From Protonemura montana (lineage: Eukaryota > Arthropoda > Insecta > Plecoptera > Nemouridae): DNA of 64,000 nt. The notes under the pieces are model-generated. The model worked only from the letters and a program-made list of their open reading frames with translations. It ran no database searches and was not told where the DNA came from. The stretch covers positions 4,526,001 through 4,590,000 of the forward strand of contig OX387606.1 of NCBI GenBank assembly GCA_947568835.1, in the 5' to 3' direction. Of the stretch, positions 32,101-35,100 are shown in pieces. Every line of letters begins with the position of its first letter. The stretch's first letter is position 1. A program made the translations under genes and the position numbers.

Positions 32101-35100
32101 TTGCTACGCTCACAAAAGAACTAAAGTAAAATAGAGTCCTTGCAAATCTATTTATTAGCAATTTTTGCTTGCAAGTATAATGAAATACTGCAAATTTAGA
32201 CCTTAGATCCCTGTACACTATTTACTATATACCATTTATATTGTAGCAAACAAAATTTGGTGCGTGGCAAAGCAACATTCTATGTAGCCCTCTGTGGTAT
32301 TAATTATATTTATTTTTTATTTTTTATTTTTTTTAATTTACAGAGACTTGCTAGTTTTTCTTAAAATAACAATTTTGGAAAGCAGCAAGGGCAAAAAAAA
32401 TGTATGAATATTCATTTCAAAAAACAAGATGAGAATTACGATTTCATTGCAGAGAAATTTGTGAAACAGCTACTTTGAAATATTTTATCATACTATTTAT
32501 TAACATGTCAATACAGAAGTCCAAAATTGTTAGGGCAACTTGAAGTTTTAACTCAATAATGCTACCAACAAATAAGGCATCTCGGCAACTCAGCCGAATG
32601 TTGCATAAATTCTTTGTTTCCATGGATTAATTAGTACAAAGCAGGCAACCAGACAGGGCGGCCTAAAACATCACTCTCAAAACTTTTTGGCAAGAAAATC
32701 TAAATTTTCAAGTTTTTAGCTACTAAGTTCCAAATTTTGAACAAAATTAGCAATGGCCCCATGCAATGTCTCTCAACAAAAGCAAAAGCTGATCAACGAC
32801 TTAGAAGATCTCATCAACTGCATTCAAATTCGGTAGGCTGCCTCGGGCTATAAATTACATTTTCTAGTTCTAGAAACATTCCAGCCAAAGTTTTGAGACT
32901 TTGCAGAATATCATATTGTTTATTTTTCAGCCCCAGTGAGAGGCCAGTTTCGAAAAAGAACAGCTCCACCCGCCAGAAGCTCGTATGCATGCCATGTCCT
33001 GCTAGCGATGGAAAGAAACAGAAAAAACGCAGCGTATGTACCGAACACATCAGAAATGTGTAAAATTTTATAGATAAAACAAGAAGTCTGACATACAATA
33101 TTTAAAATCATATGTTAACGATAGCTATTGGCGCGTTAACATTCTTTAACGTAAACCATTTCAATAATCGTAAATGCCGCTTCTGCTTGCCAATTCCAGG
33201 AGGATTCCGATGACTGGAAGAAGGACCGCTACAAGAGCCGTGAGCTCAAAAGCGGCGTGCTCTACGTCGGCTGTCAGTGCCCAAAACGAAACGGACTCCA
33301 GCACGATTGCCACCGCACCGACTGCATGGGTCGGCCGCCGTGCCTCGTGAAACCCTGGCCGGACTGTCTACCCAGCGGTGGCACCGGTCTCAAGGGCAAT
33401 GCCCCCAAGGAGTCCAAGTACCCATACAAGCCAGCTCCCTGCCCGACCCCTCAGTTCCCGCAGGGTGTGCAGGAGGACCCTTGCCACAAGGCTGGGATGG
33501 ACTGCAAAAAGTGTGAGCCTGTGCTGATGTGCAGGCCGGGCGAGGTATGGGAATGTTCCGAAGGGAAGTGTCCGCCGAATCAACAGCAGCAGCCGATGAA
33601 AGCAGATTGCTCCGGACAGACCGGGAATAAAGCCGAGCATCAGCGGCCCGGTTACGAAAGTCCACAGAAGTTGTGTCGGGCAGCCGAACCGCAGCCTGTC
33701 CAAGAGATGGTGCACTCTTCGTGTGACAAGCGCAAGGGTGATGGCGACAAGTTGAAATGCTGCGATCCACCGACTCACGTGCTGAAGCGACCAGCATACG
33801 AGGAGGTGCCTGAAGTGCCGGTAAGTCCCGGGTACCAGGTCATGTTTTGCACTCCGATTCAAACAGAAAGCGGAGCAAAGGTGGAACCAAAGACATGGGC
33901 GTTCATTCCAAAACGAAGAGATGCGCCGCCAGCGAAAGTCGACGACTGGAAGGAGCAAAAGTCGTGTGTGGAGAAGGAGAAGCCGCCATGTCTTATGTGC
34001 GGGAAGAAAGGGTGCAAGTGGCACCCATTTGTTTACATTGTCAAGCACTCGACCAACGACGATTTGTACATGCAGTGGTGAGGCGGCGGTGGCGGCGGCA
34101 AGGGCGGTGGCGGGGGTCGCAGGTCACTTGAGGTAAGGGACTTGCGACCCAGCGGACCGCGCCTTGCTGCATCGTCGCCGTCGCGGGGTGGATCCTCTAG
34201 GCGGCAGACTCATACAATGTTCACAGCAATTATTTTGCATTTGTAAAGGAGTTTTCTTAAAAAACAGCCCAATAGCTTTTCTAGGCAAAAATTGACTATT
34301 ACGCTTTTTGATAGATTCCACACATGACAAAGATTATAAAGAATGTAAAATTGTTGAAAAAAAGAGACTTAATCAAGTTTAACAAAATTAAGAGCACTTC
34401 TTAACTAAATTTTTTCCTAACATGTGTAAATAATCTTTTACAGAAATGTCCAAAGCCGAGAATCATTCACCATCCAAACGGCAAGATCCTTCCTGACTAC
34501 ACTGAGCTACTGGCTGGCAAGCTCATAGCACGTTGTGACTGCGTAAAGACCAATGGACTTCAGGATGAGTGTCGACTACGCAAATGTGGCATCCCCGAGT
34601 GTCTCTTGCGGCCACCAGATTGTCTTCCTGCAGGGGGAAAGGGGGGAAGACCGAAGCCAAGTGAAGAAGGGGACAACGAAGACGAGGATTGCATAGGCAA
34701 GGCCGGCGCGGACATTTCCAAATGCCCGGCAGGGTTCAAGCCTTACATCTGTTTCCTGCCCTGTGGGGATGAATAGCTAGCAAGCCATGACGACAAAAAA
34801 TTTGTTACATGAGGAAAAAACAACTTGGAAGAAACAATGGAAAAAATGCTTTACACGAAAAAATTGCACTTTTTGATGTTTGTAAAAATAGCAAAATGTA
34901 CATTCTCTATAAAAAGAGGAATTTACTTAGAAATTAAACATTGCCGCCTGTCTCTTGGCTAAAATTGATTTGTTTCTTTTAACTTTTTGAGCTTTTCAGC
35001 GTTTTAAGTTAATTGTATTTTTGTACAATACGACAACATTACTATTAACTCTTTATATATATATAAAAAATAGGCCTTAGAACACATTTAATTTACTTAT

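Follow-up and report, generated by a model that had tools for sequence, protein, structure and literature searches.

The stretch of Protonemura montana (Plecoptera) DNA analysed here, hereafter the window (64,000 nt; contig OX387606.1, positions 4,526,001 to 4,590,000 of assembly GCA_947568835.1), carries at 32753-34776 a plus-strand gene of four exons that join in phase, interrupted solely by one TGA, and its exon borders were set by eye from the splice-site consensus, so that the junctions are predicted ones. Minus-strand frames on both sides of it match DNA polymerase theta (31884-32081, E 2.8e-9; 35384-35620, E 5.7e-6), and the gene therefore sits within an intron of POLQ. Both the gene and its nesting had been proposed in an earlier sequence-only reading and were borne out. 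Two further genes of the same family were found elsewhere in the genome, at the loci L007 and L008, and in all three the TGA lies in a predicted pre-mRNA hairpin that spans a splice donor. Such a shared stop codon within a hairpin across a splice site suggests that the ending of the protein is chosen in the nucleus. The features of the window gene, all on the plus strand, are as follows:

32753..32832, plus strand: exon 1, bearing the start codon
32931..33033, plus strand: exon 2, with counterparts found by eye in L007 and L008
33200..34132, plus strand: whole exon 3, up to the distal donor (splice-site consensus)
33200..33820, plus strand: exon 3a, with the first cysteine module and a Pro/Cys-rich region, ending at the proximal donor
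33272..33382, plus strand: cysteine module 1 (...PDCLPSGG) in exon 3, by pattern match
33821..33826, plus strand: proximal donor GTAAGT, phase 0, in CCGGTAAGT, common to the three genes
33821..34078, plus strand: segment 3b, starting KVDDW, its protein conserved until the TGA; in L008 apparently an exon of its own
34079..34081, plus strand: in-frame TGA within CAGTGGTGAGGCG, in all three genes
34082..34132, plus strand: 17 open codons from the TGA to the distal donor
34078..34213, plus strand: predicted pre-mRNA hairpin, UGA paired with a UCA past the distal donor (RNA folding)
34133..34138, plus strand: distal donor GTAAGG, phase 0 (splice-site consensus)
34444..34776, plus strand: exon 4, including the stop codon (splice-site consensus)
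34534..34638, plus strand: cysteine module 2 (...PDCLPAGG) in exon 4, by pattern match

The genome searched comprises 258 Mb in 34 contigs and includes the window (contig C4). Three queries returned the same three genes, which have a common in-phase layout and lie on contigs C4 (window), C3 (L007) and C15 (L008): window exon 4 (E up to 0.001) gave six matches, two modules in each gene, the region of the first L008 module (E up to 10) again gave six, and segment 3b of L008 (E up to 10) gave three. The search scores the best candidates only, and more distant copies are possible. Counterparts of exon 1 were spotted by eye as VSQKREKLITDFQELIDCMQ in L007 and VSQKRQQLINDLQELIDCMQ in L008. Selection was measured on chosen stretches (window 33242-33544, 33935-34078 and 34447-34644, with their counterparts). 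Among the three genes, nonsynonymous divergence (dN) was 0.18-0.23 in the module region of exon 3 and 0.15-0.25 in exon 4, while synonymous divergence (dS) in these module stretches was 1.5-2.8 in four of the six comparisons, the other two not being computable. Segment 3b evolves faster, with a dN of 0.33-0.59 and a dS of 1.5 in one of three comparisons, the other two again not computable. Since dN is low relative to dS in these stretches, the three genes are old duplicates under purifying selection. The window gene is real, and the earlier proposal that a nested coding gene carries a genuine cysteine domain in duplicate is backed by two more genes and by purifying selection.

Each of the family genes has two modules of the NGLQ/PDC(L/I)P type. 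In the window gene, module 1 obeys C-x-C-x3-NGLQ-x2-C-x4-C-x5-C-L..PDCLP-x-GG, and module 2 does the same with x4 in place of x5; the six modules of the three genes have 21 invariant columns in common, six of them cysteines, and the exon-4 peptide retrieves the exon-3 module of its own gene at E 2.6e-5 in the whole-genome search. Two copies of the main Cys/NGLQ/PDCLP pattern in separate exons, as first described, therefore hold, with a likeness beyond chance. The trailing motif D-x-C-x-KAG-x-D-x2-KC, which had been described as shared by both copies, is exact in a single place, exon 3 of the window gene: in its exon 4 the C and KAG are separated by two residues, the exon-3 KAG position reads HKAE or HRAE in the other two genes, and their exon 4 has no KAG. 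The sequences do not support counting the KAG extension within the domain. In the protein spliced from the proximal donor, about 33 of 378 residues are cysteines (counted by eye), and no obvious signal peptide was seen on inspection. The best explanation would be an intracellular, cysteine-rich and perhaps structural protein, whose modules may hold metal or be cross-linked by disulfides. An adjacent frame at L007 (7926-8324) contains RCDCRNSNGLDPMCKC, which resembles half a cysteine module, and as a query it matches only itself in the genome.

The spliced window protein gave no Pfam-A family above the gathering score (best DUF6363, E 0.034, 14.4 bits against 26.4), no NCBIfam family up to E 10 and no chain of the PDB up to E 10. 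Pfam-A likewise returned no family for exon 3 or exon 4 alone, nor for the paralogues (all three members of alignment A3 and all three of A1). Profile searches of the PDB gave no chain up to E 10 with alignments A1 and A2 and one weak match with A3 (COX6B1, E 0.21). A scan with alignment A1 found 18 pattern-matching stretches in viral contigs and 29 in genome contigs, none of which was confirmed as a relative. A structure model of exon 4, predicted with an alignment of the two window modules, was unusable (mean predicted local distance difference test score, pLDDT, 32.2; predicted template modelling score, pTM, 0.16). The claim of no known family therefore stands for Pfam, NCBIfam and the PDB sequences, the scope covered, and relatives in annotated arthropods may exist under the name 'uncharacterised protein'. 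Within those searches, the module is an unnamed cysteine domain without known biochemistry.

The TGA that the sequence-only reading had set apart is indeed present in frame, and it is moreover common to all three genes. That reading did not describe the proximal donor, which bypasses the TGA, or the hairpin around it. CAGTGGTGAGGCG is identical in the three, all 13 bases around the UGA are alike, and segment 3b ends in QW-TGA in each. From the TGA to the next donor there are 51, 39 and 33 nt (17, 13 and 11 codons) in the window, L007 and L008, respectively, free of stops and in phase 0; in each gene an AG/GTAAG donor closes this open stretch, and exon 4 begins in phase 0. The 11-17 residues after the TGA show no conservation as a peptide among the three genes. 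Taken as arithmetic on independent genes, the chance of all three being in phase 0 is 1/27, and that of no stop after the TGA is 0.36 given the composition (20,000 shuffles); the product of the two overstates the case, because the genes share descent. The proximal donor lies within CCGGTAAGT (window 33818-33826), which is identical at 9 of 9 positions in the three genes and occurs twice in the window. In L008 the frame past this point stops after five codons (VSVFP), yet conservation resumes downstream with segment 3b and exon 4, and for this reason CCGGTAAGT is best read there as a donor; segment 3b of L008 is accordingly best read, from its sequence, as a separate exon with a putative acceptor. 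In the window and L007 the frame remains open from the proximal donor through 3b. Joining the proximal donor at 33821 to exon 4 would give an uninterrupted protein of 378 residues in the window gene. A third donor, CAGTG/GTGAGG at a Trp codon, was dropped by eye as its phase does not fit exon 4.

Folded before splicing, the sequences around the distal donor form a predicted stem of 36-53 pairs across it, with energies of -83.4, -65.3 and -75 kcal/mol over 128, 120 and 128 nt (window, L007 and L008, respectively) and z-scores of -6.69, -5.01 and -6.71; none of 200 shuffles was as stable in any of the genes. Among 5134 segments of 128 nt from the window, L007 and L008 (both strands, step 32), the hairpin loci rank 1, 2 and 4, rank 3 being a palindromic repeat at 25733. 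The pairing probability of the UGA with the UCA is 1.0 in L007 and L008 and 0.78-0.80 in the window. The window is the weakest case, as the UGA end of its stem consists of five pairs beyond a side hairpin; the fragment used for its z-score stops short of the UCA, so that the UGA is unpaired there, and another short window fragment folds with the G and A of the UGA unpaired. The arms of the stem have diverged between the copies with their complementarity kept, and the sense strand is predicted to be more stable than the antisense by 26.0, 11.8 and 17.2 kcal/mol in the window, L007 and L008. Each folded fragment has 8 G-U pairs (24 in total) against a single A-C one-by-one mismatch overall, a count biased by minimum-energy folding itself, which prefers G-U over A-C. 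The spliced RNA (128 nt beginning six bases ahead of the UGA, 100 shuffles each) has z-scores of +1.58, +1.52 and -0.6, and by these predictions the hairpin is lost after splicing.

The word TGGTGAGGCG occurs 74 times forward and 68 times reverse in the genome, against 72 and 60 for the control. The pattern TGGTGAGGCG-N75-105-CGCCTCA has two forward matches and one reverse match, all at L007 and L008, and no control match; the reverse match comes from the stem of L008 itself, and in the window copy the 3' word is not exact. As a DNA query, the L008 hairpin matches only itself in the genome. Matches to microRNA families, judged noise, lay far under their cut-offs at the L008 hairpin (mir-207, 22 bits against 88) and at that of the window (MIR1437, 20.7 against 168; MIR8622, 18.8 against 197), and no microRNA family was among the matches at the L007 hairpin.

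The hairpin most likely acts on the pre-mRNA, either in a choice between the two phase-0 donors or in adenosine-to-inosine (A-to-I) editing of the UGA to UGG. We favour the splice choice, although our confidence that the hairpin governs it and yields two C-terminal forms of the protein is about evenly balanced. In one form the proximal donor at 33821 would be joined directly to exon 4 and the protein would have both cysteine modules; alternatively, segment 3b would be kept and translation would end at the conserved UGA. This choice would be set in the nucleus by the long hairpin, whose base holds the UGA and whose upper part holds the distal donor. What would mark a hairpin-controlled alternative 5' splice site is found here, namely a pair of conserved donors of compatible phase, one of which is covered by predicted structure, and the splice choice also accounts for the phase 0 of exon 4. 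Hairpins at 5' splice sites tune exon inclusion elsewhere, as in tau exon 10, where a stem at the exon/intron boundary is likewise able to mask the donor; the present case differs in that 36-53 pairs span the donor and the stem covers a stop codon too. Several observations weigh on the other side. The part of the hairpin best conserved in sequence is the UGA and not the donor, the stop-free phase-0 stretch behind the UGA in all three genes is not needed by a splice choice alone, and the acceptor of 3b in L008 is putative; use of the proximal donor is also less certain in the window and L007, since an open frame follows it. If the splice choice is true, this would be a long, structured 5' splice site of unusual clarity, kept through the divergence of its arms, and under either model the three copies are built-in replicates. 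The two models may be linked, because adenosine deaminases acting on RNA (ADARs) are able to regulate cassette exons, according to PMC7005744.

In the editing model, which we hold only tentatively and consider clearly less probable, the hairpin would be an ADAR substrate in which the exonic UGA pairs with an intronic stretch, its A becomes inosine and the UGA is read as UGG (Trp); the full protein would then run via 3b into exon 4, and editing would pick the short or the long form. Its fullest version, in which the UGA is kept in every copy found and rewritten by ADAR on an exon-intron hairpin made for the purpose, mRNAs with 3b thereby gaining module 2 only after editing, we rate a little lower again. 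The recoding hairpins of the GluA2 type are the nearest known arrangement: there too an exonic site pairs with the intron across a donor, and there too sequence is conserved at the site and structure elsewhere. Unlike in GluA2, the putative target here is a UGA stop with a G at -1, and its editing is a prediction from genome sequence. Editing would account for the UGA-UCA pairing predicted in all three genes, for the 13 identical bases at the UGA while the remaining stem diverges, and for the open in-phase codons beyond; the fold exists solely before splicing, and the two-word pattern is confined to L007 and L008. An exonic A in double-stranded RNA with intronic sequence, as at ADAR sites, is what folding predicts. 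However, the edited A would be paired with a U, without a C mismatch, the window stem is the weakest of the three at its UGA end, and the residues behind the UGA show no protein conservation. Two loci (C2 and C11) carry exons that match the A_deamin domain over the cut-off, but these do not by themselves prove an ADAR, for the domain also occurs in ADAT1. The neighbours of the A are mixed, since a G is under-represented at -1 and slightly over-represented at +1 of ADAR sites (PMC11156358), and the UGAG of all three genes thus has one bad neighbour and one good one, the favourable 5' neighbour being absent.

For coleoid cephalopod transcriptomes, stop-loss editing of UAG to UGG has been allowed for, which like the present model would join two open frames in an animal, although the codon there is UAG and the available part of the source (PMC8382921) makes no mention of a hairpin. 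Filamentous ascomycetes edit stop codons, e.g. in PUK1, and also gain a full-length protein, but the codon edited in these fungi is UAG, which places a U at -1, loops are favoured and ADAR is not the enzyme (PMC11156358). Narrow literature searches for UGA-to-UGG editing with ADAR, and for a long conserved pre-mRNA hairpin with an in-frame stop, gave no match, which does not imply absence from print. If editing is true, the stop codon of an animal gene would have persisted in genomic DNA through old duplications, with a dedicated hairpin serving to rewrite it in the RNA.

A further reading is that the stem-loop stimulates ribosomes to read through the UGA in a programmed way, or to insert selenocysteine there; it would likewise explain why the three genes have a UGA in common and open in-phase codons behind it. 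In Drosophila, stem-loops right behind a stop promote readthrough, and dfr has a stable stem-loop beside a conserved stop (available part of PMC13170385); here, however, half the stem is intronic and would be removed from the mRNA. The 3' arm lies past the donor, the spliced RNA from the UGA has no unusual fold, and the matches up to E 5 from L007, L008 and window 32700-37000 included no selenocysteine insertion sequence (SECIS). Because the fold is present only before splicing, we consider such signals improbable. We give slightly less weight still to an old DNA palindrome or foldback without RNA function, in which the TGA would be merely the stop of the 3b form. Other palindromic repeats do occur in the genome, e.g. 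at 25733-25861, and the word TGGTGAGGCG is common, near its control frequency. However, the arms differ among the copies with complementarity kept, sense and antisense lie 11.8-26.0 kcal/mol apart and G-U pairs are in excess, while the two strands of the 25733 palindrome fold almost equally well (-71.7 vs -68.2), and the L008 hairpin retrieves nothing but itself.

The palindrome at 25733-25861 is an inverted repeat with 60-nt arms that are 85% complementary. It has sequence in common, by eye, with 35898-35980, within which a tRNA-like stretch (35898-35970) falls just below the cut-off (28.9 against 29). Elsewhere in the window, 36349-36467 resembles 5S rRNA (52.8 bits) and is perhaps, as a guess, a piece of a 5S-derived short interspersed element (SINE), and a secretin-family G-protein-coupled receptor (7tm_2, E 3.5e-17) lies on the plus strand at 26201-28066. 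Downstream of the family gene on C3 there are two opposed tRNA matches (L007 6142-6214, plus strand, and 7510-7582, minus strand; 63.2 bits each), and at 1080-1968 of L008 a coronavirus 3' untranslated region (UTR) model is matched weakly three times (26-31 bits against a cut-off of 175.8), probably a local repeat scored by chance.

The mitochondrial contig of the assembly (C34, 15,885 bp), whose protein genes and tRNA anticodon were named by eye, carries nad2, cox1, a tRNA (anticodon TAA), cox2, atp6, cox3, nad3, cob and nad6 on one strand and nad5, nad4, nad4L, nad1 and the rRNAs on the other. A trnL(UUR) between cox1 and cox2 is a mark of Pancrustacea, to which this gene order points. On the contig of the window (C4), some 1.2 Mb from it, there are COX1 copies at 5760925-5762262 and 5776811-5777755, the first of which equals the mitochondrial contig in score and in its number of in-frame TGA codons. 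They represent either a large and probably recent nuclear copy of mitochondrial DNA or an assembly artefact.
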